61,158 bases of DNA from Actinomycetota bacterium (GTDB lineage Bacteria; Actinomycetota; Actinomycetes; S36-B12; GCA-2699445): assembly GCA_020438795.1 (NCBI GenBank), contig JAGQTY010000009.1:43368-104525 (forward strand), written 5' to 3'. The position numbers were made by a program, and so were the translations under genes. Below are positions 34,156 to 50,593 of the stretch, one piece after another. The stretch's first letter is position 1. Each line of letters opens with the position of its first letter. Below the pieces are notes generated by a model. The model ran no database searches. It was not told the DNA's origin and saw nothing but the letters and a program-made list of their open reading frames with translations.

Positions 34156-35376
34156 ATGGCCAAGACTGAGACATTCGACTACCAGGTCCGCGACCGGAAG
34201 GGCCAGGTGATCAAGGGGACCCTTGACGCGGAGTCTCAGGCGATGGTCGCCAACAAGCTCAAGTCGATGGGGTATGCGCCCATCTCGATCAACAAGCACG
34301 GCGAGGGCCTCAAGAGGGACATCAAGATCCCGGGCTTCGGCCAGAAGATCAAGCTGTATGACATCGCGGTGATGTGCCGGCAGTTCGCCACGATGATCAA
34401 CTCGGGTCTCACCCTGCTTCGGGCACTGTCGATCCTGGAGCAGCAGACACAGAACAAAGCGCTGGCGCAGGTCCTCGGCGAGGTCCGCTCCAGAGTCGAG
34501 GGTGGCTCGGCACTGAGCGCGGCCCTCAGTGAGCACGAGGCATTCCCCCCGCTCATGGTGAACATGGTGAAAGCCGGCGAGGTCGGCGGCTTCCTGGACG
34601 AGGTGCTGCTGCAGGTCGCCTCGAACTTCGAGGCCGAGGTGCGGCTGCGTCAGAAGGTCAAGTCCGCCATGACCTATCCGACCGTGGTATTCATCATGGC
34701 CATCCTTGCGATGACGGGCATGCTGCTGTTCATCGTCCCGGTGTTCGAGGGGTTGTTCAGCTCACTGGGAGGGGAGCTGCCGCTGCCGACCAGGGTACTT
34801 GTGACCCTGTCCAGTCTGATGAAGCTGTTCGCACCCGTCCTGCTGGTCCTGCTCATCGTCGGGATGTTCCTGTGGCGCAAGTACCGAAGAACCGAGCGTG
34901 TCCGAAACGTGGTGGACCCCCTCAAGCTGCGGCTCCCGGTCTTCGGGAAACTCTTCCAGAAGATCGCGCTGAGCCGGTTCAGCCGTAACCTCGGCACGAT
35001 GATCAGTTCGGGTGTCCCGATCCTGCAGGCCCTGGATATCGTCGCCGGCACCTCGGGCAACATCGTGATAGAGCGCGCTGTGAAAGACGTGGAGGAATCC
35101 GTCCGGTCCGGTGAACCGCTGGCGCGGCCGCTGGAGAATCACGCGGTCTTCCCCCCCATGGTCGTGCAGATGATGGCCGTGGGTGAGGACACCGGCTCTC
35201 TGGATGCGATGCTGCACAAGATCTCGGAGTTCTACGATCAGGAGGTGGAAGCCACCACGGAGGCTCTCACCTCCCTCATCGAGCCCATCATGATCGCTGT
35301 GGTCGGCGGCATGATCGGGGCCATGCTGATCGCGCTCTACATGCCGATGTTCAAGATCTTCGAGCTAGTGAAATAA
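34156..35376 (+). CDS. pilC: Type IV pilus inner membrane platform protein PilC
   Basis: A 406-residue T2SSF-type protein with two repeated domains. Conserved blocks are FCRQ-like (MCRQFATMINSGLTLLRALSILE), EALLQVA-type helix, the membrane segments VFIMAILAMTGMLLFIVPVF and VLLVLLIVGMFLW, and the final IAVVGGMIGAMLIALYMP. The protein looks complete, including the usual C-terminus. Only six bases separate its stop from the Tn7-like terminus at 35383. In most pilus operons pilin, prepilin peptidase and PilMNO genes follow; none follow here in the window, so the operon may continue past the inserted element. Confidence 0.95.
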   Translation: MAKTETFDYQVRDRKGQVIKGTLDAESQAMVANKLKSMGYAPISINKHGEGLKRDIKIPGFGQKIKLYDIAVMCRQFATMINSGLTLLRALSILEQQTQNKALAQVLGEVRSRVEGGSALSAALSEHEAFPPLMVNMVKAGEVGGFLDEVLLQVASNFEAEVRLRQKVKSAMTYPTVVFIMAILAMTGMLLFIVPVFEGLFSSLGGELPLPTRVLVTLSSLMKLFAPVLLVLLIVGMFLWRKYRRTERVRNVVDPLKLRLPVFGKLFQKIALSRFSRNLGTMISSGVPILQALDIVAGTSGNIVIERAVKDVEESVRSGEPLARPLENHAVFPPMVVQMMAVGEDTGSLDAMLHKISEFYDQEVEATTEALTSLIEPIMIAVVGGMIGAMLIALYMPMFKIFELVK

Positions 35377-35377
35377 C

Positions 35378-35382
35378 CGAAA
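35378..35382 (+). other. Candidate left copy of the 5-bp target-site duplication (CGAAA)
   Basis: Tn7-type elements duplicate 5 bp at insertion, and these five bases lie directly outside the TGT terminus. If correct, the same five bases should follow the right end, beyond the window. Confidence 0.45.
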
Positions 35383-35459
35383 TGTCGGTTGACAGCAGAC
35401 ATTGCGTTTTGACAGATACCTTGCGTCAGTCTTGCGTCGTTTGACAGCTATCCTGCGTC
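35383..35459 (+). repeat. Transposon end with TnsB-like binding repeats
   Basis: The end starts TGTCGG and contains three direct repeats: 35389-35408 (TTGACAG, 6-base spacer, TTGCGTT), 35409-35427 (TTGACAG, 5-base spacer, TTGCGTC) and 35441-35459 (TTGACAG, 5-base spacer, CTGCGTC). A partial copy (CTTGCGTCG) lies at 35431-35439. Spaced ~20-bp repeats behind a TGT terminus are the hallmark of Tn7-family ends. A weaker TGACAG-containing copy occurs at 35593-35598. Confidence 0.78.
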
Positions 35460-35752
35460 GCTCCACGAGTGGAGTGCTCAGTGCCAGCCTGTCCGAGTTG
35501 GTGTCGCACGGTGTGAAATTGAGCTGGCGCTGCGCCCATGCAGTGGTTGAGATGTCGGAGGAGAGTCTGGCTCTCAGGGTCAGCTCTCACCATGACAGGT
35601 TGGCGACAAGCTCAGGCTCCTCTTGTGGCGCAGTTGTCGGAGCGCCATAGGGACTCACCACCCGTCGACTGGGGATTGCCTCTGTCCCTGTTCTGGCCGC
35701 CAGCGGGGGCTATTGGGGGAACTTCACTCTCGAGCCCCGGCACGCGGTCACG
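35460..35752. other. Non-coding stretch inside the transposon end
   Basis: No convincing gene on either strand. It contains a scattered TGACAGGTTGGCGACAAG similar to half of the end repeats, and otherwise nothing I can interpret. It may include outlying TnsB sites and separates the end from the convergently read DUF2752 gene. Confidence 0.5.
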
Positions 35753-36184
35753 CTAGGGGATGGCGGAGGTAATGATTAGGTCTGCGTGGGCCTGCTGGTT
35801 CAGCCACCAGAGGACTGCTATGGCGACCCAGACGATCACCGGCAGTCGTAGGTTGAGGTAGATCCAGTTCTTTGTGGTGAGTCCGACGGCGAGTCGGGTT
35901 AATACTGTTGCGGCTGTGACGGCGAGGAGGTAGGCGGCTGGGTTGTAGTTCCAGGCTGCGATGAGGTTCCCGCCGGCGAGTGCCTCTGTTGCGCGGGTGA
36001 GGCCGCAGGTGGGGGTGACGATGCCGTACTGCCAGGTGGGCATTGGTAGGGGGATGTGCGGTAGCCCGAACAGTGCCAGGCTGATGGCGGCCAGGACGCC
36101 TGCCATCGCGAGCCAGGTGACGACACCTACGTTCCCTTTCGCTGTTCCAGGCTTGCTGTGGACGTGGAGGTATGTCTTCCACAT
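35753..36184 (-). CDS. DUF2752 membrane protein
   Basis: A 143-residue protein with three to four hydrophobic segments. The diagnostic DUF2752 block is TPTCGLTRATEALAGGNLIAAWNYNP (usual form CPGCGLTRA...GDLAAAWRYNP), here with Thr in place of the first Cys. Function is unknown; the family is frequent in Actinomycetes. It begins one base after the multicopper oxidase stop, so it is the second gene of that operon, and it is the cargo gene closest to the transposon end. Confidence 0.85.
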   Translation of the reverse strand: MWKTYLHVHSKPGTAKGNVGVVTWLAMAGVLAAISLALFGLPHIPLPMPTWQYGIVTPTCGLTRATEALAGGNLIAAWNYNPAAYLLAVTAATVLTRLAVGLTTKNWIYLNLRLPVIVWVAIAVLWWLNQQAHADLIITSAIP

Positions 36185-36185
36185 G

Positions 36186-37637
36186 TCAGGCGGTGTAGTC
36201 GAGCCTGGTGGTCATGCCGGCTTCTGCGTGGTAGCCGTTGTGGCAGTGCAGCATCCAGTTGCCGGGGTTGTTGGCGAGGTAGTCGACCGATGCTTGAGCA
36301 TGGCTGGTGAGCAGGAGGGTGTCCTTCCTGGCTCCCGTTCCGCCTGCTGGTCCGATCTGGAATGTGTGGCCGTGCAAGTGCAGGGGGTGGGGCATCATCG
36401 AGTGGTTGAAGATGTTCAGCCGTCCCGTGTCACCGAGTCCGGTGGTCAGGGGGACCGTGTTCTCGTACGTCTTGCCGTTGATGGTCCAGACGTAGGGTCC
36501 GGTCCGGCCCTGCTCGAGGACGACGCGCTGCTCGTGGGCAATCTCGGCGGCCGGGAGCCGGACACTCTCAAGACTGGTGAGTTGCTCCACGCCGACCGGC
36601 TGCTGGTCCACAAGTCCTGGGTTGATCCGGTCAGGTGGGCTGCTGCCTTCGACGCGGATGAGGCCGTGGGCGTGTTGGTCCTTGCCGACTGCGGCGGCGA
36701 TGAACGGCACGGAGGCATCGCCCACAGTGAGGACCGTGTCGTACCGTTCGCCCATGCTGATGAGCAGTGATCCGGCCGCCCTGGGCTGCACTGGGTAGCC
36801 GTCGGTGTGGGTGATCAGCAGGTCGTGGCCGGGGACGCCGACGTGGTACAGGGTGTCCGCTGCGGCGTTGACGATACGCAGCCGGATACGTTGTCCGCCT
36901 TTGACGGTGATGCTGTCCGGATCGGTGTTCGACCTGCCGTTGATGAGGTGCAGCGGGTAGGTGACGTCGCCGCCTCCGTGTCCGCTCATGCCCATGTGGC
37001 CATGATCCTGTCCGCCGCTGTTGACGAGGTTGTCCAGGACCTGTTCAGGGGTGGTGCCGGTGCCGTCAATCCAGTCGTCGAGGACGAGGACCCATTCGTG
37101 GTCATAGTCGCCTGGATCCTCAGGGTCGTCGACGATGAACGGCGCGTAGAGTCCGCGATCCAGTTGGACACCGTGATGGGGGTGGAACCAGTGGGTGCCG
37201 GAGTCAGGGACGTCGAAGTCGTAGGTGAAAGTGCTGCCCGGTTCTATCCCGGGGGTGGTGACGTCAGGAACCCCGTCCATGTCGTTCGGGATGGCCAGGC
37301 CGTGCCAGTGGACGCTGGTGTGGGTAGGCAGCTGGTTGGTGACGGTGATCCGGGCCCGTTCTCCTCGGGTGAGCCGGATGGGCTTTCCGGGGAGCTGGTC
37401 GCCGTATGTCCAGGTGTCGACGATCGTGCCGCCGAGGTCGATCCGACTCTGCTGCGCAGTGAGCGTGAACTCCTTGAGTGGCCCTGTGGGGGTGCCGCTG
37501 GGGGCGGCCACGAGGGCATTGCTGTTGCCCCCCGCATCCACCGTGCGGGTGCCGCAAGCCGCCAGCGCACCGGTGACGGTGAGGCCCAGGGCCGCGCCGA
37601 GCAGTTGACGGCGGTTGAGGCCGGGTCGGTTGATCAC
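36186..37637 (-). CDS. Multicopper oxidase
   Basis: A 483-residue secreted oxidase, likely a three-domain laccase/CueO type. The N-terminus has both a twin arginine (R9-R10, RRQLLGA) and a lipobox-like LAAC (Cys28), so it is probably Tat-exported and may be a lipoprotein. All copper ligands are present: HWHGL, HPHHG (FHPHH), HPLHLHGH and HCHNGYHAEAGM, giving one type 1 copper and a trinuclear centre. It should oxidise Cu(I) or organic substrates outside the cell. GTG start at 37637. The candidate operator (37684-37700) lies 47 bases upstream. Confidence 0.95.
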   Translation of the reverse strand: MINRPGLNRRQLLGAALGLTVTGALAACGTRTVDAGGNSNALVAAPSGTPTGPLKEFTLTAQQSRIDLGGTIVDTWTYGDQLPGKPIRLTRGERARITVTNQLPTHTSVHWHGLAIPNDMDGVPDVTTPGIEPGSTFTYDFDVPDSGTHWFHPHHGVQLDRGLYAPFIVDDPEDPGDYDHEWVLVLDDWIDGTGTTPEQVLDNLVNSGGQDHGHMGMSGHGGGDVTYPLHLINGRSNTDPDSITVKGGQRIRLRIVNAAADTLYHVGVPGHDLLITHTDGYPVQPRAAGSLLISMGERYDTVLTVGDASVPFIAAAVGKDQHAHGLIRVEGSSPPDRINPGLVDQQPVGVEQLTSLESVRLPAAEIAHEQRVVLEQGRTGPYVWTINGKTYENTVPLTTGLGDTGRLNIFNHSMMPHPLHLHGHTFQIGPAGGTGARKDTLLLTSHAQASVDYLANNPGNWMLHCHNGYHAEAGMTTRLDYTA

Positions 37638-37683
37638 TCAACCATCATGCTCCGCGCAAGGCTGTACTCCGACGTCGCCACGG

Positions 37684-37700
37684 TGAAGAAACAATCAAGA
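37684..37700 (+). promoter_or_regulatory. Candidate copper-regulator operator, site A
   Basis: TGAAGA-AACAA-TCAAGA: two hexamers 11 bp apart. It lies between the histidine kinase gene and the multicopper oxidase start, reading opposite to the oxidase gene and 47-63 bases before its start. Confidence 0.6.
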
Positions 37701-37722
37701 AACGGGGCCACTGCTGCGTGGG

Positions 37723-38835
37723 CTACTCGTGGGCTGGCAGCTGGATAGTGAAGCTGCTGCCTTGCCCCGGTCCGGGGCTGGTGGCAGTGATACTGCCGTG
37801 ATGTTCGATGACGATCCGGCGGGCGATGGTGAGTCCGAGGCCACTGCCGGTGGGTGAGTCGGCGATGGTTCGGGCTGGGTCGGCCCGGTGGAATCGATCG
37901 AAGATTGCTTCGAGCTGGCCTGCTTCGATGCCTTCACCGGTGTCGGTGATGACGATTTCTACGGTTGGGCCGTGATTGTGCGCCTTGAGGTGTACTGATC
38001 CTCCAGCCGGCGTATGTTGCAGTGCGTTGCTCAGCACATTCGTCAGTACCTGCTGGAGCCGTTCCTCGTCTCCGAGGACGTTCCGGGTCAACGAGTCGAC
38101 GCTGGACTCTACTGAGACTCCCTTGGCCTGGAACTGGGGTCTCGCCAGGTCTGCAGCCAACTGCACCTGCCTGCGAATGTCCAGTGGAGCCAGATCCAGA
38201 GTCAGGTCGAGGTCCTCCTCGTGCCGGCTGGCAGCTTGCCGGATGTCCTTGGTGAGCCGGTGCAGCCGGCTGATCTGGTTGCGGAGCACCTGGTAGGTCT
38301 CAGCGTCGGCCTCAACGACACCATCTTCGAGGCCGTCGATGAATGCTTCCAGGGTGGCCAGTGGGGTTCCGATCTCGTGGGCGAGATCGTTGAGCATCTG
38401 GCTGCGACTCTCGTCCACTTCCTTCAGCTGCCAGGCCAGCTGTCGGAATGATGTCGTCAGCGAGTCGAGCTCGGCTCCGAAACCCTGTTCTGGGATGGGG
38501 ATGTCGTAGTTGCCGGCCGCGACTTGTCTGGTTGCCTCAGAGAGTCGTTGAAGGGGTGGGACGATTCGGGTGACCAGAAGCCAGGAGATGATGCTGGCCG
38601 CAATGATGGCCGCTGCGGATGCGACCGACAGTGAGATCAGATAGGCAGAGTTGAATGCCTGTTCGGCGTGCTCGATCGTGCCTGGGTCTGTCACCCCTGA
38701 ACGCATCAAGTGCTCGGTGAACAGTGGCGGTGCCACGATCACTTCAGTGACCAGAAGCGTAACTCCGCCGACGGCGATGACGATCAGCTGGGCGATCATC
38801 AACCGGGTGGCCAAACCCGTGCGTTGTTGCTTCAC
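37723..38835 (-). CDS. Sensor histidine kinase, OmpR-partner type
   Basis: A 370-residue membrane kinase. TM1 (about 11-34) and TM2 (about 65-90) enclose only some 30 extracytoplasmic residues (PPLFTEHLMRSG... with a few His/Met/Glu); HAMP follows, then the dimerisation helix with phosphoacceptor H153 (NDLAHEIGTPLATLEAF), N box VLSNALQHTP, DTGEGI and GSGLGLTIA. Being in a copper island with a cognate regulator, it most likely senses metal or envelope stress, but the sensor region is too small to say which ligand. Start overlaps the regulator's stop by 4 bp. Confidence 0.9.
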   Translation of the reverse strand: MKQQRTGLATRLMIAQLIVIAVGGVTLLVTEVIVAPPLFTEHLMRSGVTDPGTIEHAEQAFNSAYLISLSVASAAAIIAASIISWLLVTRIVPPLQRLSEATRQVAAGNYDIPIPEQGFGAELDSLTTSFRQLAWQLKEVDESRSQMLNDLAHEIGTPLATLEAFIDGLEDGVVEADAETYQVLRNQISRLHRLTKDIRQAASRHEEDLDLTLDLAPLDIRRQVQLAADLARPQFQAKGVSVESSVDSLTRNVLGDEERLQQVLTNVLSNALQHTPAGGSVHLKAHNHGPTVEIVITDTGEGIEAGQLEAIFDRFHRADPARTIADSPTGSGLGLTIARRIVIEHHGSITATSPGPGQGSSFTIQLPAHE

Positions 38836-39536
38836 GCCGCACTCGGTTCCAGGGCGTAACCGACACCTCGAACCGTGCGGATGATGGCGTCATTTCCCAG
38901 CTTGTGGCGGATGTGGCCCACGTGTACGTCGACGACATGCTCATCGCCGAACCAGTCCCTGCCCCACACGTCAGTAAGGATGTCGTGCCGGGAGAACGCG
39001 GCTTCTGGCTGCTTGGCGAGGGTGTTGAGAATGTCAAACTCTGTGCGGGTGAGCTCCACATGCTGACCGTGCCACGTAATCCTGCGAGCCGACTCGTCGA
39101 TGACCAGTGCCCCCACCCGCATGGTGGTAGGGGTCGCCAGCGAGCGTGGACGGCGCAGCATAGCCTTTGCCCGTGCCACAAGCTCTCTCGGCCGGAAGGG
39201 CTTCACCAGATAGTCATCGGCGCCGACCGACAGGGCCACGACCTTGTCCGTTTCGGTGTCGCGGGCGGTCAGCATAATGACATAGGCATCAGTGAAAGTC
39301 CGCAGCTGCCGACACACTTCCACACCGTCGAAACCCGGCAGCATGATGTCCAGCACCACCAAGTCCGGCTGACACTCCCGCGCCATCTCGACCGCATCCG
39401 ATCCACTATGAGCAACCTGAACCTGCATCCGCTCCCGACGCAGATAGCTCGCCACCACCGAAGCGAACGGCACCTCATCATCGACAACCAGCACCTGAAC
39501 CGCATCGCTGGGGGATTGCGTCATGTTAGGCAGCAT
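38832..39536 (-). CDS. OmpR/PhoB-type response regulator (CopR/CusR-like)
   Basis: A 234-residue regulator: receiver with D19-D20 (VVDDE), phosphoacceptor D63 (VLDIMLPG) and Lys in YLVKPFRP; winged-helix output domain with TRTEFDILNTLAKQPEAAFSR and VDVHVGHIRHKLG...IRTVRGVGYAL. OmpR-type regulators bind tandem half-sites about 11 bp apart, which is what the repeated TGAAGA-N5-TCAAGA sites in the cargo offer. An inner ATG (39524) is an alternative start. Transcribed with the upstream SHOCT gene and the downstream kinase. Confidence 0.93.
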   Translation of the reverse strand: MLPNMTQSPSDAVQVLVVDDEVPFASVVASYLRRERMQVQVAHSGSDAVEMARECQPDLVVLDIMLPGFDGVEVCRQLRTFTDAYVIMLTARDTETDKVVALSVGADDYLVKPFRPRELVARAKAMLRRPRSLATPTTMRVGALVIDESARRITWHGQHVELTRTEFDILNTLAKQPEAAFSRHDILTDVWGRDWFGDEHVVDVHVGHIRHKLGNDAIIRTVRGVGYALEPSAA

Positions 39537-39566
39537 AGACGCTCGCCAACGAGAATGAGATCGACG

Positions 39567-39839
39567 CTACACCCCAGCGCGGTGCCGCAGTTCCTCCACG
39601 AGTTCTCGATACTCGGCGATGGTGATATCGCCAGCCGCCAAGCGCCGCTCCAGGATCGTCTCAGGATCATCCTCAGCTTGTCCGTCTCTGATCTCGCTGG
39701 CGTCACCGCCAATGGAGCGGACGCTGGTCAACCGCACGATCGCCCACACCGCCAGTGCCACGATCACCACCCAGAACAGCATCATAGACCCGGCTCCCAG
39801 CCAGGACCAGTCCGTCTCATACATGTGGTCCCAATACAT
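39567..39839 (-). CDS. SHOCT domain small membrane protein
   Basis: A 90-residue protein: one N-terminal membrane helix (MMLFWVVIVALAVWAIVRL) and a C-terminal SHOCT motif (ETILERRLAAGDITIAEYRELVEEL). AGGAGG is seven bases before ATG 39839, which fixes the start; an upstream GTG is rejected. SHOCT proteins are small adaptors of unknown role and often sit beside copper or two-component genes in Actinomycetes. Thirty bases separate it from the regulator gene, so SHOCT-regulator-kinase is probably one operon. Confidence 0.85.
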   Translation of the reverse strand: MYWDHMYETDWSWLGAGSMMLFWVVIVALAVWAIVRLTSVRSIGGDASEIRDGQAEDDPETILERRLAAGDITIAEYRELVEELRHRAGV

Positions 39840-39899
39840 GATGACCACCTCCTGCCCCCATCATGGACCCGCCGATCATGAAGAACCGACCAGCCTGCA

Positions 39900-39916
39900 T
39901 GAAGAAACGATCAAGA
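39900..39916 (+). promoter_or_regulatory. Candidate copper-regulator operator, site B
   Basis: TGAAGA-AACGA-TCAAGA, in the intergenic region between the SHOCT gene (minus strand, 61 bases away) and the 33-residue peptide and sortase genes (plus strand, 163 bases away). A degenerate first half (TGAAGA at 39879-39884) lies 21 bases upstream. It could serve either side. Confidence 0.6.
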
Positions 39917-40078
39917 CAACTCCGTGATATGGCGCAGGTCGTGCCCTTCGGGCGATGCTGAAAGTAGGCTGAAGCGTCCGACCTTCCTCCGCGACCGGTG
40001 CTCATTGGAGAGAACACTGGCAGGTTCGTGGAGTTCCGTCGCACTCGGCCATAGGGGATGTCCTCGTGGAGGTGCATC

Positions 40079-40180
40079 ATGAACGGCCATGTATGGGCTC
40101 TAGCGGTCGTCTTTGCTCTTGTTGCGCTAACGGCGATGGTGTGGTGGCTGTGGACGATCCTCGAACGCAGCGTCGGATGA
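40079..40180 (+). CDS. 33-residue single-pass membrane peptide
   Basis: A short frame, ATG to TGA, preceded by GTGGAGG at a normal distance of seven bases. The peptide is a single hydrophobic helix (VWALAVVFALVALTAMVWWLW) ending in the tail TILERSVG. Such small membrane peptides with an adjacent good ribosome site are usually real. It lies 106 bases upstream of the sortase gene in the same direction and downstream of operator site B. Function unknown; a role as a small regulator of a membrane partner is possible. Confidence 0.55.
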   Translation: MNGHVWALAVVFALVALTAMVWWLWTILERSVG

Positions 40181-40286
40181 GGCTGCAAATCACCCAAGTA
40201 CCGTGGCCCCTGGGTGCGACGATTGGCGGTCGCGGGGAGCCCTCTTGCAGCAACCTCGCTGCTTGCTGGGCGGAGTCGGCTGAGGA

Positions 40287-41069
40287 ATGAGACTACGTCA
40301 GAACAACGGTGACGTGCTGGTATCGGCGTTGCCCCGCCCTCTAAGGCACAGGCGGCGCGGCCGTTGGTCGACCGGGATCGGACTGCTGGGGGAGCTGCTG
40401 CTCACCCTTGGAGTGCTTCTGCTTCTATTCGTCTTGTGGCAGTTGTGGTGGACCGACGTTTTGGCCGGACGCGCCTTCACCGAGGAGCGGCAAGCTCTGC
40501 AGCAGGAGTGGGCGATGCCCACTTCCACGGATCACGCCGGCGCAGGCGACTCCCGCAATGCCAACCCCGTCCGACCCATACCCGGCAAAGCGTTTGGGTT
40601 GGTGTTTATCCCGCAGCTGCGCGACCGCGCCTGGGCCATTCCGGTGTTGGAGGGGACCGATCGAGACACGCTGACCAAAGGTATGGGGCATCATGAAGGG
40701 TCTGCTATGCCCGGGGAGTTGGGCAACTTCACGTTGGCTGGGCACCGCACGACCTACGGAGCTCCACTGCACGACATCGACCAACTGCAGGTCGGAGACG
40801 AGGTGATCATTCAGACGGGTCGCCGCTACTCCACGTACACGCTGACGAACAGCATCATCATCCAACCGCACGAGGGTTGGATTCTTGACCCGGTCCCTGG
40901 CCTTCCGGCCGATACCGAACCTGATGAAGCGTTGCTGACGATGTACTCCTGCCACCCGAAATTCTCGGCTGCGCAACGGTTCGTGTGGTTCGGGCGTCTG
41001 ACCGATCAACGAGCCCGGTCGGCTGGACCCCCAGCTGCCCTCGATGAACAGCTCCTAACGGATCCCTAG
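40287..41069 (+). CDS. Class E-type sortase
   Basis: A 260-residue transpeptidase with one N-terminal membrane helix (LLLTLGVLLLLFVLWQLWW). The sortase triad is H153 (LAGHRTTYG), C222 (TMYSCHPKFS) and R231 (AAQRFVWFG); in class E the cysteine motif is T-x-T-C-x-P, here modified to M-Y-S-C-H-P. It should attach surface proteins to the peptidoglycan precursor. No protein with an LPxTG/LAxTG signal occurs in the window, so its substrates must be elsewhere or beyond the window. ATG 40287. Confidence 0.88.
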   Translation: MRLRQNNGDVLVSALPRPLRHRRRGRWSTGIGLLGELLLTLGVLLLLFVLWQLWWTDVLAGRAFTEERQALQQEWAMPTSTDHAGAGDSRNANPVRPIPGKAFGLVFIPQLRDRAWAIPVLEGTDRDTLTKGMGHHEGSAMPGELGNFTLAGHRTTYGAPLHDIDQLQVGDEVIIQTGRRYSTYTLTNSIIIQPHEGWILDPVPGLPADTEPDEALLTMYSCHPKFSAAQRFVWFGRLTDQRARSAGPPAALDEQLLTDP

Positions 41070-41452
41070 CGAACGGCTCTGCGATGCTCTCTGCGGCGAT
41101 TGCGATCAGCTCGATGAAACCTCAATCGAAAAAGGGGTGACCGCGAATGATCGAAAGGACACCGCGTGACGGCCGCCACGGTCACGACTGTCAGGCTGCC
41201 GGTGATCGAGGCGCCGGCGTCTCGATGGTTCTTTGATCGATTCGAGGACTCATTCGCATACGGGTGGGGGTGGGTCTCTATGTTCCGCGTCAATGCTTAT
41301 AGATGGGAGCGGGTGTGCCATATCCTGCCCCACGAGGACGCCGGGATGATGGGAGTCGTGAACCTCCGGTAGTTTGTCAGTGGTGGCCGGCTGCGGCTTC
41401 GTGCGCGGTAGCGACGAACGTTCATGTCACCACCGCCGCGAGCTACTCGTGG
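41070..41452. other. Stretch without a confident gene
   Basis: A 383-base gap after the sortase. The only sizeable frame is a 68-residue GTG frame at 41166-41372 with no recognisable family and a weak ribosome site. A poor match to the cargo operator, TGAAAC-CTCAA-TCGAAA, lies at 41115-41131. I see no hairpin terminator. Confidence 0.35.
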
Positions 41453-42463
41453 TCAGACGCCGCCGTAGGAGTGCAAGCCGGTGAAGAACAGGTTCACGCC
41501 GAAGTAGTTGAAGACGTAGGTTGCCAGGCCGATCACGGCCAGCCATGCCGCTCGCCGACCCTTCCAGCCGGCCGTCGATTGAGCGTGTAGATAGCTGGCG
41601 AAGACAACCCACGTGATGAATGCCCACGTTTCTTTGGGGTCCCACCCCCAGTACCGCCCCCAAGCGCTTTCTGCCCAGATCGCGCCAGCGACCACGGCGA
41701 AGGTCCAGACCGGGAAGGCGAACGCGATGAGCCGGTAGGTGAACTGTTCCAGCACGACTGGCGCCGGAAGTCGCTGTCCGATCTCGGAGAGCCTCTGTGA
41801 GACAGGACCCTTCACTGGCCCTTGTGCCCATCTGGCCATGAGGTAGAGCGCAGCGGTGGTTCCTGCGATGAGGAACGCGGCGCCGCACAGGATTGCCATG
41901 GAGACATGGATGACCAGCCAGTAGGAGTCCAGCGCTGGTACGAGTTGTTGGGTTTCGGTGTACAGCACGGTGGTCGCCAAACCCAACGTGAGCAACACCA
42001 GAGGGATCAGGAAGACGCCGAGCCAACGAAGATCACGGCGGACAGAGACTGCCAGGTAGACCAGCAAGATAGCCAGAGCGCTACTCACGGAGAACTCATA
42101 CATGTTCCCCCATGGCACTCTGCCTGCCCAGCTCGCCCGCGTGATCACAGCGACGAGTAGCAGGATGGTGGCGAGCCAGGACAAGGACAGGCCGATGTTG
42201 CCGGCCCGGCGCCCGCGAGTATCAGGTGGAGGCTGCGGCCGAGACTCAAGTGCTCTGCTGGCAGCGTCTCCGGCAGCCCCCGATGCTTGCACGGCCACCA
42301 GCGCCCGCCGCGACTCTCGCAGGTCAACACTGTCGCTGCGGCGGACAGCGAATGCGACCGCGAAAGCGATCATGGCCGCCACCAGAGCCAGCATGGCCGC
42401 ATAGACCATCGAGTTGGAGAACTCCGCCACGGTGGTGGCGCTTCCCACCTGAGTTGGTATCAC
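41453..42463 (-). CDS. ccsB: Cytochrome c biogenesis protein CcsB/ResC
   Basis: A 336-residue multi-helix protein of the CcsA/CcsB/ResC haem-handling family. The WWD-type motif, WGRYWGWDPKETWAFITW, and the conserved histidines in WLVIHVS and SYLHAQS are present. With ResB it forms the system II complex that moves haem across the membrane and joins it to apocytochrome c thiols. GTG 42463 is chosen because it overlaps the ResB stop by 4 bp and AAGGAAG lies in front. Last gene of a DUF3105-CcdA-ResB-CcsB operon. Confidence 0.93.
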   Translation of the reverse strand: MIPTQVGSATTVAEFSNSMVYAAMLALVAAMIAFAVAFAVRRSDSVDLRESRRALVAVQASGAAGDAASRALESRPQPPPDTRGRRAGNIGLSLSWLATILLLVAVITRASWAGRVPWGNMYEFSVSSALAILLVYLAVSVRRDLRWLGVFLIPLVLLTLGLATTVLYTETQQLVPALDSYWLVIHVSMAILCGAAFLIAGTTAALYLMARWAQGPVKGPVSQRLSEIGQRLPAPVVLEQFTYRLIAFAFPVWTFAVVAGAIWAESAWGRYWGWDPKETWAFITWVVFASYLHAQSTAGWKGRRAAWLAVIGLATYVFNYFGVNLFFTGLHSYGGV

Positions 42464-44016
42464 TGGCACCTTCCTTCTTTCACTTGCTGGGGTTCGATGC
42501 TGTCCTTGACAGGCCCTTGAAGGTCACCGAGGAGGGCCTTCTGATCCATGACCGCGGCGCTTGGCCCTCGTTGCAGCGCTGACACTGCCACCCCGTCGCC
42601 TGGCCTGGCCACCACCCACAGTCGTCGGCGTCTCACGAACAGGCTGATCGTCATACCAGCCACGGCCACGACGATCGACAGCAACGCCCACGGCCCGCCA
42701 CTGTCCTCGGCCACTTTCACCGCGATCCAACGGTCGAAGCCGAGAAACTCCACTCGCTGGCCCTCGGGTAACTCCCAAGTGTCACCCGGAGACAGGGACT
42801 GCAACCCGATCTGCTGCAAATGGGTCTCGTCGAGAGTGAAGACGCTTTGCGGCACGCCGGCGTCCAAGCCCAGGTCGCCCTTGAAGGCGCTGAGAAAAAC
42901 CACCGGGTTGTCCGGCGCCGGGAACGTGGAGAAAGGTCCCCTCTCCTGGCTGATGGCTGCCGTGGGTGCGAACAACCCACGGAACCCGAGTTGTGGGCGG
43001 GCATCAGGGACTTTCACGACTCCCAGTGACGTGAAATTCGAATCCTCCTGTGTGAACACGGTCGAGTCATCGAACACGACTGTGCCGCTGCTATCAGTGA
43101 CACGCAGCCGCGGCGCGTACCCGTGACCCAGCAGGTAGATTTTGGCGTCCTTGACGGTTACCGGGTTGTTGACGCTGAGGAACTCGTGGCTCTGCGACTG
43201 TGCAGTCGAGACACTCACCTGCGCGTCAAAGTATCGTGGGGTCCCGGCTTGCTGCGGGTCCCGGTCGAACTGAACATCAAAGGAGTCCAGCGTGACCGTG
43301 AATGGAGCCAACGTTTCTTCGTTCACGAACCGGCCAGCGGTGAACTCATCGTACTGACTCACGGTGTTGGAGAATCCCGTCCCTTCGCGGAGCACCACAT
43401 TACCGTGCCAACCGGTCACGGCACCCCAACCGACCGCGATGAGCAGGCTGAGCAGGGCGAGGTGGAACACTTCGTTCCCGGTTTCCCGCAGGTACCCCTT
43501 CTCAGCGGCGACGAACGTCCCCGTTCGGCGGACTCGCCAACGTTCACTGCGCAGCAACGCTTCTGCGCGAGTGAGCAACACCTCACTGTCGCCGGCGACG
43601 ATAGGATCACTGGACCGATGCCTGGGGGGATCGGGTGGTCCAGCACGCCAGGTGCGGTAGTGCACCAGGACCCGCGGGAATACGCAGCCGACCAGGGATA
43701 GGAACAGCAACAGATATACGGCCGAGAACCACACAGAACCGTACACGTCAAAGAGGCTGAAGCGATCCAGCCATTCGGCCAGCCTCGGGTGCTCTCGGAA
43801 GTACTCGCCGACCGCGAAATCATCAGAGGTGCGCTGCGGGAACAGCGAACCAGGAACTGACGCTAAACCCAACAAGAGCAACAAGACCAATGCCGTCCGC
43901 ATCGAAATCAGGCGTCGCCACATCCACCGCAACCACCCGGTTACGTTGAGTCCGCCCGGTGGGTCAATCCTGCGATCCATCGGGTCGGCATGCGTCGCGA
44001 ACTCGGTAGCGCTCAC
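42460..44016 (-). CDS. resB: Cytochrome c biogenesis protein ResB
   Basis: A 518-residue membrane protein with three N-terminal helices (MRTALVLLLLLGLASVPGSLFP, SAVYLLLFLSLVGCVFPR, LALLSLLIAVGWGAVTGWHGN), a large extracytoplasmic domain (about 190-430) and a C-terminal helix. The RTALVLLLLLG...PGS...FP and PR opening is diagnostic of ResB. GTG 44016 is used, because it overlaps the CcdA stop by 4 bp; upstream residues in this frame overlap the CcdA gene and have no similarity. It works with CcsB to mature c-type cytochromes outside the membrane. Confidence 0.93.
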   Translation of the reverse strand: MSATEFATHADPMDRRIDPPGGLNVTGWLRWMWRRLISMRTALVLLLLLGLASVPGSLFPQRTSDDFAVGEYFREHPRLAEWLDRFSLFDVYGSVWFSAVYLLLFLSLVGCVFPRVLVHYRTWRAGPPDPPRHRSSDPIVAGDSEVLLTRAEALLRSERWRVRRTGTFVAAEKGYLRETGNEVFHLALLSLLIAVGWGAVTGWHGNVVLREGTGFSNTVSQYDEFTAGRFVNEETLAPFTVTLDSFDVQFDRDPQQAGTPRYFDAQVSVSTAQSQSHEFLSVNNPVTVKDAKIYLLGHGYAPRLRVTDSSGTVVFDDSTVFTQEDSNFTSLGVVKVPDARPQLGFRGLFAPTAAISQERGPFSTFPAPDNPVVFLSAFKGDLGLDAGVPQSVFTLDETHLQQIGLQSLSPGDTWELPEGQRVEFLGFDRWIAVKVAEDSGGPWALLSIVVAVAGMTISLFVRRRRLWVVARPGDGVAVSALQRGPSAAVMDQKALLGDLQGPVKDSIEPQQVKEGRCQ

Positions 44017-44957
44017 AGTGGCACCTCGAAGCCGGTGACGAGGCCCTGCAGCCAGATCACGATAGCGTTCCACCACCCGAACACCAACATCACGCCGATG
44101 ACGGTCAGCATGGCGCCACCTGCGACGGACAAGGCCCGGAAGTGCCGGCGCGCCCAATCGTTGGCGCCAGCGAAGGCGCGCAATCCCAAGGCCATACCAA
44201 GGAACGGCAGACCTAGACCCAGACAGTACGCGGCTGAGAGCAGGCCACCGCGCAACGCGGATGCTTCAGAGAACGCCATGGCTTGCACCGCTGCCAGGGT
44301 TGGGCCGATGCACGGAGTCCAGCCCAGCCCGAACAGTCCGCCCAGCAACGGTGCACCCCATAAGCCTCGCGTCGGCCGATACTGCCAGCGTCGCTCACGG
44401 TTCCACAGGAAGGAGCCTGCAATCGCCGGTAGGCCCGCGAACCCGAGACCCATCAGGATCACAATCGCCCCCACCACGACCGTGATGGCTTGCTGATACG
44501 TGAGCAGCCAACCGCCAAGCCCTCCGAACAGGGCACCATAGGACACAAACACGAGAGAGAAGCCAGCCACGAACAACAAAGCTCCCCACAAGACCCGGCC
44601 ACGCGCCACCGCGGCGGCCGTCGGAGTGTGGGTTCTGCCCCCGGCGGCCCAGAAAGCGCGAGGCCCTCCACCCGTTCCCACCATTGAGGAGCCGGCGGCA
44701 ACCGTGGTTGTTCGGTTGCCTGAGACGTCACCGTTCCGTGGACCAGCAACCGCTACCTGGGATAGATCACGATAGCGGCTGTTTGCAGCTCGTCGATTGG
44801 CCTGGAGATCCATACCGGTGAGACCGGTGATGTACCCCAGATAGCCGGGAGCCAGCGGCAAGACGCATGGGCTGAAGAACGACAATATGCCCGCCGCGAT
44901 AGCGATCGGGATAGCCAGGAGCAGATTCCCGTCCAGGACGATGGCTGTCACGTCCAT
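44013..44957 (-). CDS. ccdA: CcdA/DsbD-type thiol-disulfide transport membrane protein
   Basis: A 314-residue protein with about six helices. The two redox cysteines sit in the FSPCVLPLAPGYLGYITG and LGWTPCIGPTLAAV motifs, as in CcdA. CcdA passes electrons from cytoplasmic thioredoxin to periplasmic thiols, keeping apocytochrome and TlpA/ResA-like proteins reduced. The hydrophilic loop after helix 1 (about 50-120, Ala/Thr/Gly-rich) is much longer than usual in CcdA. AGGAG lies before ATG 44957. Operon with DUF3105, ResB and CcsB. Confidence 0.92.
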   Translation of the reverse strand: MDVTAIVLDGNLLLAIPIAIAAGILSFFSPCVLPLAPGYLGYITGLTGMDLQANRRAANSRYRDLSQVAVAGPRNGDVSGNRTTTVAAGSSMVGTGGGPRAFWAAGGRTHTPTAAAVARGRVLWGALLFVAGFSLVFVSYGALFGGLGGWLLTYQQAITVVVGAIVILMGLGFAGLPAIAGSFLWNRERRWQYRPTRGLWGAPLLGGLFGLGWTPCIGPTLAAVQAMAFSEASALRGGLLSAAYCLGLGLPFLGMALGLRAFAGANDWARRHFRALSVAGGAMLTVIGVMLVFGWWNAIVIWLQGLVTGFEVPL

Positions 44958-45047
44958 GGCACTCCTTTCACCCAGTGGTCAACCAACAGCGCAGCCGGTG
45001 TGGGGAGCAAGGCAATGCGGTTGCGTTTCAGGGGCGACTCTCGAGCC

Positions 45048-45692
45048 CTACAACATGGGGTTGCCAATCCCGCCGGTGCACGGCGCGCCCGGCTCCGGCG
45101 CTTGCTTGCCGTTGACATAGCGCTTGAGGAAGCGTTCGAGGCGCGAATCGTCCACGCTGTCGAGTTTGAGTTGATGGCCCCACGCCGTCGCCACGACAGG
45201 GGATGCTTGCTCGGGGAAGGGGCTCACAAGAAGGTAGCTTCTGCCCTGAGCGAGGTCTTGAAGCGCTGCGATGTCCTCTTGCGACAGGTCGGGGCGATAC
45301 GTCAGCCAGACCGCGCCGTGCTCCAGTGAATGCACTGCATTCTCGACTGCAACTGGTGTGTCGTAGACGCCGCAGTTCTGGACGGTTGGAGAGTGGTCGC
45401 CGCCTGTTGGGGGCAGCTCGGTGGCCACGATCGGATGATCTGGGACATGGTTAGCGGACTGGTCCTCAACTTGAACCACGCCCTCGATCGGAGCGACGGC
45501 GGCGTCCTGCGCGGAGCGGACCCCCCACACCGCCCCGCCGATGATCAGGACCACCAGCACCGTGGCACCGCCGAAGATGAGGACGTTTCGGCGACGCTCG
45601 CGCCGGGCATCGGCGCGCCTCAGCTCCTCTGCAGCTTGGCGTGGCGACTTCTTGCCAGCTGAGGTACCTGCTTTGTGCTGCTTCTTGCTCAC
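45048..45692 (-). CDS. DUF3105 domain protein
   Basis: A 214-residue protein with a cytoplasmic basic N-terminus, one membrane helix (VLIFGGATVLVVLIIGGAVWGV) and an extracytoplasmic DUF3105 domain: PPTGGDHSPTVQNCGVYDTPV, then ENAVHSLEHGAVWLTYRPDL. The His-rich and Cys residues are conserved in the family and could bind metal. Function unknown; commonly found next to DUF305 and copper genes in Actinomycetes. GTG 45692 has GGAG six bases upstream. First gene of the CcdA-ResB-CcsB operon, downstream of operator site C. Confidence 0.85.
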   Translation of the reverse strand: MSKKQHKAGTSAGKKSPRQAAEELRRADARRERRRNVLIFGGATVLVVLIIGGAVWGVRSAQDAAVAPIEGVVQVEDQSANHVPDHPIVATELPPTGGDHSPTVQNCGVYDTPVAVENAVHSLEHGAVWLTYRPDLSQEDIAALQDLAQGRSYLLVSPFPEQASPVVATAWGHQLKLDSVDDSRLERFLKRYVNGKQAPEPGAPCTGGIGNPML

Positions 45693-45791
45693 CCAGACTC
45701 CAGTTGTTAGCTCGGTGCGTCGGCGTCCCACAGCTGACGGTTCGTTTCACCCTGCCACGGGGACACCGTCTCGAGCGAGGAACACGGCTAG

Positions 45792-45808
45792 CCTTGATTG
45801 TTTCTTCA
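45792..45808 (-). promoter_or_regulatory. Candidate copper-regulator operator, site C
   Basis: On the minus strand TGAAGA-AACAA-TCAAGG, 100-116 bases before the DUF3105 start and reading in the same direction as that gene. Confidence 0.55.
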
Positions 45809-45925
45809 TGGACCAGTCGCTGCAGCGGCTGTGCCCCCCAGGTTGTTTGCTCCGGCAGGCCACGGTGCGGTGTCAGGGGTAGCCTGTCCCCGCAGCAGGC
45901 GTCCCAGAGCGTAGCCCAGTGGTCC

Positions 45926-47110
45926 TTACCGGATTCGTGCAAACGTATCCTTGCGCGACTGATTGGTGTTCTTGGGGAGTGCGGACTTCTTCTTCCAGGC
46001 GCGCCACTGATGGGTCCAGTGTTTGCCCTGCCCATAGGCCAACCGCGCGGTCATGGCTCGTCCAGTGCCTTTGGTGACGACTGGGTCGCCTTCCCGGGTG
46101 CGGTGGTACAGCCAGCGGGCGTCTTCGATATTCATGTTCGTGCAGCCATGGGAGCCGTTGGCCTTGCCGATGCGGTAGCGGGCCCACGGCGCTGAATGGA
46201 TGAACTCGCCGTTGGTGGTGATCGGCTGGGAGTAGGGGGACATGACGTCCCACGTTTCGCCGCGGACGTTGCCGGTCATGCGCAGGTTCCGGTACTTGAT
46301 CCCGGTGAGAACCTTGATGCCGGAGCGGGTTTCCCAATTGCGCTTGCCGAGGGAGACGCCGAACTTCTTACGCAGCCTCCCGTTCTGGTACACGTACATG
46401 TGGTGGGTACGGTTCTTGATGAGCATCACGAATGATCGAGCCAGTCGTAGCGTTTCGACTCGGGTGGCTTGGCTGCCACCGATGTAGCGGGCCTCGCCAT
46501 CGTCGCGTAGGACAACGTCTGTGAGGTTGAGCCGGAAACGTACGTTCGTCTTGCCCGGCCAGAAGTTCCGAGTCCGGTAGACGGCCGTCTGGTCATCCAA
46601 CCAGCCCCAGCGTCCCTTTGGCAAGAGGACCTGCTGCCGACCCCGCTTGCCCGTCCGGTCTCCAGTTACGCTGATATTCCGTTCGACCGCCGCCTTCCGT
46701 GAAACGGGAACGGGGAACCGCATTTTCACGGTCTGAGCCACGCCCATCTTGCTATCAGGAATGTCAAGGGTGGGGGTGACTTTGACGACCTTGACACCGG
46801 TCTGGGCAGACACTTCGGTGGACTCGAACCCACTCTTATCCGCGAGACGAATGAACTCCTCATCCACAGCCCTCAACAGCACTTCGGCCTGCCGTGCTGT
46901 CTCTTCCAGTTTGGGTTGCAGGCGCTCGTCGGAGTTGTCCTCGGCAGCGGTGACCGTGCTGGTGCTCAGCAGCCCCAACAGGACGGTGGCGGTGGTCGCT
47001 GCAGCGATGGTCAGTTTCTTAGAGGTCTTCCTCCGCCGCGGCACTGTCGTCGACATCGGCGGGTCGGATCGCGGAGTCGCCTTCGACGTGGCCTCGTGGT
47101 CAGGCTTCAT
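45926..47110 (-). CDS. L,D-transpeptidase (YkuD), first copy
   Basis: A 394-residue exported protein. A hydrophobic segment (about 35-55) acts as signal or anchor; a Big-type Ig-like domain (about 105-205, TLDIPDSKMGVAQTVKMRFPVPVSRKAAVE) precedes the YkuD catalytic domain. The catalytic motif is SHGCTNMN with H321 and C323. These enzymes make 3-3 cross-links in actinobacterial peptidoglycan. The start overlaps the TlpA stop by 4 bp (ATGA), so it is the last gene of the Ldt-TlpA-Ldt operon. Partner copy 47720-48865 has the same architecture but is clearly diverged. Confidence 0.93.
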   Translation of the reverse strand: MKPDHEATSKATPRSDPPMSTTVPRRRKTSKKLTIAAATTATVLLGLLSTSTVTAAEDNSDERLQPKLEETARQAEVLLRAVDEEFIRLADKSGFESTEVSAQTGVKVVKVTPTLDIPDSKMGVAQTVKMRFPVPVSRKAAVERNISVTGDRTGKRGRQQVLLPKGRWGWLDDQTAVYRTRNFWPGKTNVRFRLNLTDVVLRDDGEARYIGGSQATRVETLRLARSFVMLIKNRTHHMYVYQNGRLRKKFGVSLGKRNWETRSGIKVLTGIKYRNLRMTGNVRGETWDVMSPYSQPITTNGEFIHSAPWARYRIGKANGSHGCTNMNIEDARWLYHRTREGDPVVTKGTGRAMTARLAYGQGKHWTHQWRAWKKKSALPKNTNQSRKDTFARIR

Positions 47111-47718
47111 GAGCGGTGCTCTCTTTCCGGTTCAGCGAGGAGTTCTTCGATGAACCCTCGCAGTGCTGCCGCGGAAGCTTTCCCGATGATCCGTCCGGCG
47201 ACTCGACCTTCCCGGTCCACGAACAGCGTGCTGGGGATCGCTGCGGGAGGGACCGAGTCGCGCATCTGCAACTGAAGGCTGCCGTCAGCGTCCATCAAGT
47301 GGGGGTAGTCGAGCTCGTAGCTCTCGGCGAATCGTTGCGAGGCGACCTCGGAGTCACGGGTGACCAGGCCGATGAACTGGACTGGTTGATCCTTCGTTTC
47401 CTGCCACACCTCGCGAAGCTCGGGTGCTTCACCTCGGCAGGGACCGCACCAAGACGCCCAAATGTTCAGGACGAGGACCCGGCCGCGATAGTCGACCAGA
47501 TTCAGGGTGTCGCCGTACACGGAGCTGCCCCGCAGCTCCGGCAGCGGCCGTCGGTCTGCAACATCGAGGAGTTCGACCTGCTGGGAACTGCCATCGAACC
47601 CGGCCGGCAGTTGCGCTGACTGCGCGCCCTGCTGCGAGGCGGCACACCCGGTGATGAGCACACCGGCAAGGAGCAAGCCAAGAAGTCCGACGGAATGCTT
47701 CACGTATGGGGCGGGCAT
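47107..47718 (-). CDS. TlpA/ResA-like thioredoxin-fold lipoprotein
   Basis: A 203-residue redoxin with a lipoprotein signal (LLLAGVLITGC, Cys25) and the active-site motif WASWCGPC (C91, C94). It is a membrane-anchored thiol reductase of the TlpA/ResA type, probably kept reduced by CcdA. Its ATG 47718 follows the upstream Ldt stop by one base. Its position between two L,D-transpeptidases suggests it keeps their catalytic Cys (or other envelope thiols) reduced; that is inference. Confidence 0.92.
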   Translation of the reverse strand: MPAPYVKHSVGLLGLLLAGVLITGCAASQQGAQSAQLPAGFDGSSQQVELLDVADRRPLPELRGSSVYGDTLNLVDYRGRVLVLNIWASWCGPCRGEAPELREVWQETKDQPVQFIGLVTRDSEVASQRFAESYELDYPHLMDADGSLQLQMRDSVPPAAIPSTLFVDREGRVAGRIIGKASAAALRGFIEELLAEPEREHRS

Positions 47719-47719
47719 G

Positions 47720-48865
47720 TTAGAGAGCACTGCCGGCGGTCCAGTCTTTCCAGGATTCGTTCCAGACTGTAATCCCGTTGCCGAGGTCCTGCTCCCGACC
47801 ACTGTTCACGACTTCGACGACGTCGCCGATATTCACGTTCTGCATCAGCCACTCCGAGTCGGATGGGCTCAGGTTGACGCAGCCATGCGACACATTGCGC
47901 CACCCTTGATCTCCTACCGACCACGGTGCTGAGTGCAGGTACTCTCCGGACCAGGTGATCCGCATCGCGGTATCGATCGGAATCTTGTAATACTCAGGGT
48001 CGCTCTCGGCGACGTCGGCGGTGAAGACGACGTTGCGTTCCTTCGTCATGATCACCTTGATACCGGACCTGGTGGCATAGCCCGGCTTGCCCGTGGACAC
48101 CGGCATGGTCTTGATGAGCTTCCCGTCGCGTTTGAAAGTCATGTCATGGTCGGACGCGTCGACGAGCATCAGATTCGCTGCCCCGTACTTGATCTTGCGA
48201 GTGGCGTCTTCCAAGCCGTACACGTCGTTGCCGGCATGCACCCCCTTGAGGCGAGCATCCAGACGGACCTTGGTGTGAGCTGGCCAGTACTTCTTCGGCC
48301 GGTAGGACACCGAGGTGTCACTGTCCCACGACCAGCTCCCGACAATCTCCTTCTCAGCGTTGGAGCTGATCAGCAGGCGCTCCTCAACGGCAGCCTTGTT
48401 GGTCACGGGTTCGTTGAACGTGACCTCGATCGGCATCCCCACTCCGTAGGTCTCACCGTCGTTCACGTTGGTCCACATCGTGAGTTCTTTGCTCGGTGTG
48501 AACGTACTGAACTTGCCACTGACGGTCGTGGCCTGACCACGCAGATCCACCGCGGTGGCCGTGACGTGATAGCGGGTCCCAAACTCCAGCTGTGAGGAGT
48601 CCGGCTCCCAGGCTCGTCCACCGCGAGTCAGCTGTCCACCGACCTGCTGTCCAGTGGCGGCTGAGACCACTTGCACGTCGCTGATCCTGCCCTGTCTTAC
48701 CTTGACCACTGGCTTGCCGAACGGGACGTCGTCCTGCCCGAACACGGGGGAAGACAAGATGGCTGCGGACTCGGCGATTGGCGGGGTCACCAGTCCCAGC
48801 GACGGGGTGCATGCCGCGGTGATCAGTAACGGCAGTGCGGCTGCAGCTGCCCATCGACGTCGCAT
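47720..48865 (-). CDS. L,D-transpeptidase (YkuD), second copy, lipoprotein
   Basis: A 381-residue lipoprotein with signal LPLLITAAC (Cys19). Two Ig-like domains (about 45-120 and 125-225) lie before the YkuD domain, the layout of mycobacterial LdtMt2. The catalytic motif is SHGCVNLS with H327 and C329; HSAPWS and the STGKPGYATRSG stretch are conserved. Start: ATG 48865 is used; TTG 48871 is in frame and closer to a GGAAGG stretch. First gene of the Ldt-TlpA-Ldt operon, downstream of operator site D. Confidence 0.93.
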   Translation of the reverse strand: MRRRWAAAAALPLLITAACTPSLGLVTPPIAESAAILSSPVFGQDDVPFGKPVVKVRQGRISDVQVVSAATGQQVGGQLTRGGRAWEPDSSQLEFGTRYHVTATAVDLRGQATTVSGKFSTFTPSKELTMWTNVNDGETYGVGMPIEVTFNEPVTNKAAVEERLLISSNAEKEIVGSWSWDSDTSVSYRPKKYWPAHTKVRLDARLKGVHAGNDVYGLEDATRKIKYGAANLMLVDASDHDMTFKRDGKLIKTMPVSTGKPGYATRSGIKVIMTKERNVVFTADVAESDPEYYKIPIDTAMRITWSGEYLHSAPWSVGDQGWRNVSHGCVNLSPSDSEWLMQNVNIGDVVEVVNSGREQDLGNGITVWNESWKDWTAGSAL

Positions 48866-48959
48866 CTTCAACGGGAGATCACCTTCCAGATGGCTCGTGG
48901 TCCCCACTCAACCGCAACCACGACTCTGGAGCTACGGCACAACCCCGTCCGGTCGGCCT

Positions 48960-48976
48960 TCTTGATCAAGTCTTCA
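48960..48976 (-). promoter_or_regulatory. Candidate copper-regulator operator, site D
   Basis: On the minus strand TGAAGA-CTTGA-TCAAGA, an exact match in both hexamers, 95-111 bases before the L,D-transpeptidase start. A GTAGCT hexamer about 23 bases downstream could be the -10. Confidence 0.6.
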
Positions 48977-49155
48977 TAAATCAACGATCGTCGACTGGTA
49001 GAAGCAGACAATTCGTGCTGTGTGCTGTGTCCAAGTGACCAGGGCATCGGCCCGTTCTACTTCGCTACCGCTGCGGTCTGGGTGATGAGAGCGCCCGTAC
49101 TCCTCGGACCTGGAGGGCCTCAATGACGACCTTCGAGGATCGTTCCTGGCCGTTG

Positions 49156-49503: not shown

Positions 49504-49516
49504 TCAAGTTGGTTCA

Positions 49517-49533
49517 TGAAGATATGACGAAGA
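49517..49533 (+). promoter_or_regulatory. Candidate copper-regulator operator, site E
   Basis: TGAAGA-TATGA-CGAAGA, 105-121 bases before the DUF305 start and in its orientation. A GATAGC hexamer about 20 bases downstream could be the -10. Confidence 0.55.
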
Positions 49534-49637
49534 AACGCATTCCCTACCTCACGGATAGCAGGAAAACCCCGATTTGGCCTCATGCTTCAGGTATTGGCTG
49601 AGGTTCGGTTCAGAATTAGTCGAAGGAGAATATCGCG

Positions 49638-50258: not shown

Positions 50259-50333
50259 CTACACTACTGCCGCGTGCCAGCTTCTGCAGCCGGTGAACAG
50301 CCAGCGCCTGAACAGCCTGGGTCTGGCGTTTCG

Positions 50334-50552: not shown

Positions 50553-50593
50553 CCGGGTCGCTCGGTCCCATGGGGCCAGGTTCTTGGTCGCAG

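Follow-up and report, generated by a model that had tools for sequence, protein, structure and literature searches.

A Tn7-like transposon directly downstream of pilC in an actinobacterium and a likely attachment site shared with relatives in other phyla

The pilC locus and the transposon inserted behind it

The window, i.e. the whole stretch of 61,158 nucleotides (nt) analysed here, belongs to contig C212 (JAGQTY010000009.1) of an Actinomycetota bacterium, whose draft genome comprises 212 contigs and is 88.1% complete with 3.62% contamination. Genes for shikimate dehydrogenase and for two T2SSE-type ATPases, one pilB-like and one pilT-like, precede the type IV pilus gene pilC, and a Tn7-like transposon begins just behind the latter. 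pilC (34156..35376, forward strand; PF00482, 2.2e-64) is intact and ends with the stop codon TAA at 35374-35376. The six bases CCGAAA (35377-35382) separate this stop codon from the left transposon end (35383..35460, forward strand), which thus starts 6 nt after pilC. The end opens with TGTCGGTTGACAG at 35383 and consists of a TGT terminus, TTGACAG repeats at +6, +26 and +58, and TnsB-type half-sites of the form TTGCG/CTGCG near +19, +38, +49 and +70. The initial annotation had described a TGT terminus and three spaced repeats six bases past an intact pilC, and this description was confirmed. The pentamer CGAAA directly outside the terminus (35378..35382, forward strand) is predicted to be the left copy of a 5-bp target duplication, as the same five bases stand outside a terminus on another contig of the genome, C33.

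The transposition genes start about 21 kb past the left end and occupy 56540-61158, all on the forward strand. They encode a TnsA-like endonuclease subunit (56540..57388; NF033179, 1.4e-40, above the cut-off), a TnsB-like DDE transposase (57385..59664; weak rve and HTH matches, PADLOC TnsB model 5.4e-19), a TnsC/TniB-like AAA+ regulator (59675..60769; PF05621, 5.2e-11, scanned from 59678) and the first 131 codons of TniQ, the predicted target selector (60766..61158; PF06527, 5.8e-08; 35% identical to the TniQ of the related locus L051, see below). Both the window and the contig stop inside tniQ, and the right end lies outside the window. The clustering of tnsA, tnsB, tniB and tniQ, the last cut by the contig end, together with the TGT end and its spaced TnsB-type sites, supports the Tn7-like identity that had been proposed for the element. 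We consider it very probable that this is a Tn7-like TnsA-TnsB-TniB-TniQ transposon whose TniQ chose the site by reading the conserved last codons of pilC, and we conclude that the pilC end is a new attachment site, common to three phyla, of a transposon that is itself of a known kind but belongs to a little-studied lineage.

Insertions behind pilC in the order and in other phyla

In order to see where related elements reside, an alignment of TnsB was used to scan 84,980 species genomes, which yielded 17 loci. The top five were L051, L052 from a metagenome-assembled genome (MAG) of the Deinococcota, and L053, L054 (Rhodoferax) and L055 from Betaproteobacteria. At all six loci of the window's TnsB clade whose site could be read, two from Actinomycetota, three from Betaproteobacteria and one from Deinococcota, the transposon end lies 5-10 nt after the stop codon of pilC. 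The comparison of related elements near pilC had been suggested at the outset, where it was pointed out that a single insertion does not distinguish a fixed site from chance; it favours a fixed site, and a separate element in another genus (genome G003) also starts at +6. No relative of this clade was found at an unrelated site, the outcome named as a refutation of the idea, though two elements from a sister clade apparently lie at dnaB. Since the relatives in two other phyla lie 8-10 nt after their own pilC genes, the pilC end is likely a fixed landing site, and chance placement beside pilC was ruled out by the placement of the relatives.

At L053, L054 and L055, an open reading frame (ORF) at the position of tnsA directly follows pilC, with ends 8, 9 and 9 nt past the stop codon; family scans confirmed tnsA in L053 and L054, and pilC in all three. 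The flank first taken for L052 contained no pilC, but a search of the genome placed the gene about 24 kb upstream of tnsA, with the transposon end 10 nt after its stop codon. The betaproteobacterial PilC proteins are only about 35% identical to that of the window and have different ends. Two of the relatives are complete: the element of L053 (G562:C27, 44628-65431) is flanked by CAGGT and the Deinococcota element (G561:C52, 51279-82411) by GCTGG on both sides, i.e. the 5-bp target duplication is perfect in both. For the strand searched, the chance expectation of the right end plus duplication strings was 0.0003 (CAGGT) and 0.004 (GCTGG). The additional flanking sequence that yielded the right end of L053 did not reveal those of L054 and L055. 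The right flank of L053 is pilD (Peptidase_A24), so that the joined flanks read the pilC stop and then the pilD start. The insertion in this contig (L053/L142) leaves the pilD start codon with pilC and cuts it off from the remainder of the gene, whose expression there would thus need another start. TnsB relatives also occurred in 166 plasmid records, all with less than 60% identity, and two weak candidates from viral contigs were dropped.

Within the order of the window, pilC matches were obtained in 51 of 166 genomes (54 rows), and the 48 rows that retain the 3' end of the gene were analysed, the other six being left out. An end of the pattern TGTC-N2-4-TGACA was present within 140 nt of pilC in three of these 48 flanks, namely in the window (+6), in G003 (+6) and in L051 (+5), whose contig is identical to G045:C124. 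In a sample of the phylum, the strict pilC-end pattern, which is blind to TGTAGGG-type ends, occurred in 1 of 396 genomes, at the window's own site. A search for TnsB was positive in 9 of the 396 genomes of the phylum sample and in 6 of the 166 genomes of the order, both counts including the window's own genome. In the family of L054, this TnsB was found in 2 of 399 genomes sampled and the element is thus rare.

The element of G003 (L079:1330-3199), which starts 6 nt after pilC, measures 1.9 kb and carries an AbiEi/AbiEii-type pair between transposon ends, the right terminus having been placed at L079:3199 by the spacing of the sites. It contains no tns genes, and a search for TnsB in the G003 genome at E 1e-30 was negative; it is likely a non-autonomous Tn7-like element. 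Its flanks, GCCGC on the left and GCAGC on the right, agree in four of five bases. At L079:3206, six bases past the right end, the window's terminus recurs as an exact 13-bp copy, which may be left over from an older element stacked at this site. None of the G003 ORFs beyond the element matched the cargo of the window. In the family of the window, the region 3' of pilC in G002, G003 and G006 (L094, L079 and L095) comprises several kb of differing genes; pilin-like ORFs lie about 6-7 kb past pilC in G003 and G006, and were not seen within 10 kb in G002.

The ends were compared by a layout test that is free of motifs and requires a TGT followed by three similar hexamers at the spacing of the relatives. 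The test set consisted of the 48 flanks of the order and four flanks from other phyla (52 in total). In this test, which was designed after the ends had been seen, the seven flanks with ends scored 16-18 of 18, the left end of the window reaching 18. In the remaining 45 flanks, five TGTs occurred within 15 nt of the stop codon, with a best score of 12. The TGT at +6 after the pilC of L033 was rejected, as it shows no end layout and scored 7. Further out, 103 TGTs across all 52 flanks scored 14 at most. In L055, another TGT, at +6, likewise reaches 16, but the terminus was taken at +9 because this position aligns with L053 and L054. All seven left ends have half-sites at about +19, +39, +50 and +70 to +80, with varying cores (TTGCG, TTTCC, GGCAC, TTGCA in two of them, TTTCAG and TGAGAAC). 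The layout of the end has been preserved, while the motif, presumably the one read by TnsB, changed.

Site selection by TniQ and competing explanations

The distance from the codons for Pro-Ile/Met-Phe near the end of pilC to the terminus is 30 nt in the window, 30 in G003, 29 in L051, 29 in L053, 30 in L054, 30 in L055 and 37 in the Deinococcota element; from the pilC stop codon, the distances at the same seven sites are, in this order, 6, 6, 5, 8, 9, 9 and 10 nt. TnsD of Tn7 occupies the last 36 bp of glmS, and the transposon inserts about 25 bp away from this stretch and about 20 bp past the stop codon (PMC2918618). If the same geometry applied here, the selector would be positioned over the codons for G-A-M-L/I-I/V-A-L/M-Y-M/L-P-I/M-F-K (actinobacterial form), which form a conserved block. 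The predicted selectors resemble TnsD, for which a CCCH motif has been described (PMC2918618, available part): TniQ measures 617 amino acids (aa) in L053, 620 aa in L055 and at least 561 aa in L051, and the proteins of L055 and L051 align along their length to that of L053 with 62% and 30% identity, respectively. The TniQ domain is N-terminal, and Cys-x2-Cys and Cys-x2-His are conserved in all three. The TniQ of L052 has 835 aa from the start codon chosen. A homology search with TniQ gave no match besides the query. We infer that a TnsD-like TniQ of about 620 aa with a CCCH motif reads the last pilC codons. In the proposed mechanism, TniQ would bind these codons directly and thereby fix the point of insertion about 30 bp downstream, TnsC would bridge TniQ to this point, and TnsA and TnsB would cut the cargo and paste it there. 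The bases read would code for a conserved portion of a protein of pilus assembly, so that many bacteria with type IV pili would possess the site; this would explain its use across phyla.

Phylogenetic analysis of TnsB was based on two trees. The second contained 31 TnsBs with genomic context, after L042, L048, L067 and L088 had been dropped as long branches or fragments; the first also included these four rows and 17 proteins without context. The six TnsBs from pilC sites cluster together as a single group (support 85/80), which is present in 82% of bootstrap trees. For the 25 tree rows outside this group, pilC was absent from the flanking DNA examined, and the site could be read for two of them. 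In these, L057 (a Frankiaceae MAG) and L081 (G101:C42), TGTAGG lies 7 and 4 nt, respectively, after the stop codon of dnaB, and tnsA comes next. Judged from these sequences, the 3' end of dnaB is likely a second attachment site, used by two elements of a sister lineage, which suggests that different lineages keep different genes. Since the pilC of L052 lay beyond the flank first taken, the failure to see pilC near the other 23 sister loci does not fix their sites. The dnaB gene of L057 carries homing-endonuclease (intein-like) domains.

Several observations weigh against site selection by reading of pilC codons. The distance of 37 nt in the Deinococcota element is outside the 29-30 nt of the other six sites. 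Unoccupied pilC genes show the same AT-level conservation at their ends, which alone does not therefore suffice to demonstrate selection by the element. A structure prediction of TniQ from three sequences reached a predicted local distance difference test (pLDDT) value of 34.6. The pilC group of TnsBs is only moderately supported by the values given above, and the wider clade comprises 17 metagenomic TnsBs without readable context, one of which, P0014, is L051's own. The contig of L051 belongs to a bin with 7% contamination that has another, complete pilC, so that its host is uncertain; as its pilC tail is 79% identical to that of the window, versus 67% for the other pilC of G045, the contig may be misbinned. 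This draft genome (C124, C246, C687, C725 and C878) contains two pilC genes and four TnsB relatives. Finally, a single old insertion may underlie all three betaproteobacterial cases, and the independence of the insertions is safest at the level of phyla plus the three actinobacterial ends.

Taken further, inheritance by descent could account for the position at pilC altogether, as a single old insertion without repeated targeting. The six TnsBs do form a single group, and those of L053 and L054 are 81% identical. Against this, occupancy is patchy, with ends at three of the 48 flanks of the order and this TnsB in 2 of the 399 genomes sampled from the family of L054; empty pilC sites were already seen in 45 of the 48 flanks, and the ends, offsets, flanking bases and cargo all differ, G003 of the same family carrying an element of other size and content. 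We regard this explanation as very unlikely. Insertion 3' of the same conserved gene recurs at six of six readable loci of the clade and in G003. The position of the ends just past the stop codon would also agree with recognition of a feature downstream of pilC, such as a terminator, a hairpin or an intergenic motif. The bases downstream differ, however, at all seven sites, those of L053 including the pilD start, whereas the distance to the coding motif is near-constant, which makes such a feature a very improbable target. The genes between tniQ and the right end are unseen in the window, as the element is cut at tniQ, and could in principle include the components of a guide RNA system like that of CRISPR-associated transposons. 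Selection by a guide RNA nevertheless appears extremely unlikely: no cas family was recognised among the cargo proteins scanned, which represent part of the cargo ORFs of an incomplete element and were covered without an array search, and the TniQs measure 560-835 aa, large TniQ/TnsD proteins going together with direct reading of the site according to the available part of PMC10293859.

Direct reading of the pilC end by TniQ would have wider consequences. A pilC-codon site in three phyla at near-constant distance would represent a new selector-target pair and a natural experiment on distance measurement by selectors, and might be developed into a site-specific insertion tool for bacteria with type IV pili. 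We put forward only tentatively, as possible but rather doubtful, that the 3' end of pilC serves transposons generally as a landing site and corresponds, for type IV pili, to attTn7, with one TniQ lineage of Actinomycetota, Betaproteobacteria and Deinococcota reading the Tyr-Leu/Met-Pro-Ile/Met-Phe codons and inserting 30 bp on, and that landing between pilC and pilD may damp pilus assembly or DNA uptake. If this were true, the element would reside in the very machinery that could rid its host of it, and would modulate this machinery.

Candidate right end, known systems and cargo

Contig C33 of this genome carries an exact 23-bp copy of the terminus that starts 247 bp from the end of the contig, and the next five bases outward are CGAAA, matching the predicted duplication across two separate contigs. 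With three mismatches allowed, the end pattern matched at five places in the genome, and with 0-1 mismatch at C212 and C33 only. The TGACA spacing on C33 (7/51/85) is close to that of the right end of G003 (7/50/84) and unlike that of left ends. We consider it more probable than not that the C33 end joins the window element as its right end. A matching right terminus with CGAAA, whose absence had been named as grounds for rejecting the initial annotation, was thus found, but on a contig that is unlinked to C212 and on which no pil genes were recognised; this, too, counts against the proposed reading of the locus.

The terminus on C33 may instead belong to a second insertion or a rearranged copy, a possibility to which we assign a clearly lower likelihood. 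The genes beside it read as a macB-like transporter cluster (by ORF reading, without a family scan), and in G001 and G006 such clusters lie on contigs other than that of pilC, while G004 has the cluster and no pilC match. A weaker homologue of the cluster (39%) occurs in G010 about 21 kb from pilC. Apart from one match of 34% identity to a 603-aa ORF, no homologue of the ORFs of the pil regions of G002, G003 and G006 was found on C33. The draft state of the assembly, with its 212 contigs and 88.1% completeness, leaves room for such a copy. On the other hand, the exact match of five flanking bases has a probability of 1 in 1024 for one comparison, the assembly contains one TnsB and just two ends with 0-1 mismatch, and the spacing on C33 is of the right-end type. 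A gene of G003 read as aroC had no match in the window's genome, so that the assembly may lack the remainder of the pil operon, although this empty answer alone shows little. Whichever origin applies to the C33 end, the right end alone is concerned and the pilC site is unaffected.

The element shares with Tn7 the TnsA/TnsB/TnsC/TniQ-type gene set and TGT ends with several TnsB sites and, by comparison with the available part of PMC2918618, the 5-bp duplication (in the relatives), insertion directly behind a conserved gene that stays intact and, in the relatives, a large selector with a CCCH motif. Unlike in Tn7, the target is pilC instead of glmS, insertion occurs 5-10 nt instead of about 20 nt after the stop codon, TnsB is only distantly related, and TnsE was not recognised among the genes scanned, in which no search aimed at TnsE was made. 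The nearest solved TnsB by sequence is that of the type V-K CRISPR-associated transposon ShCAST (1.6e-12), which is also the nearest PADLOC model; unlike in ShCAST, tnsA is present, and neither Cas12k nor another cas family was found among the proteins scanned. The host phyla fit the Actinobacteria-dominated TnsB clade of Benler et al. 2021 (PMC8649781), a likeness by hosts only, and the available part of that paper does not name a pilC site for the clade. Few attachment sites are named in the available part of PMC11406308, namely glmS, yhiN, comM, parE, tRNA genes and plasmid resolution sites. Tn6022 at comM is likewise a Tn7-like element that targets a gene connected with DNA uptake, but it inactivates comM via TniQ and a partner protein (PMC11406308, available part), whereas pilC is intact here. 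In the open-access literature searched, we found no paper naming pilC or dnaB as an attachment site of Tn7-like elements, which agrees with the initial statement that the pilC 3' end was not known as a target; as subscription papers, preprints and supplements were barely covered, this novelty is provisional.

The cargo of the window element (35753..56102) consists, according to family scans, of predicted copper, cytochrome c/thiol and envelope genes. The predicted copper genes encode a multicopper oxidase, a CopM-like DUF305 protein, a P-type ATPase and CopC-CopD; further predicted products are VKOR, CcsB, ResB, a DsbD-like protein, L,D-transpeptidases, a two-component pair and a class E sortase. 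Such elements would amount to metal-resistance islands tied to the pilus operon. Seemingly metal-related cargo, with DUF305-like and P-type ATPase genes by ORF reading, is also carried by the Deinococcota element (L140/L052, G561) and by L086 (G009:C11), which belongs to another TnsB clade.
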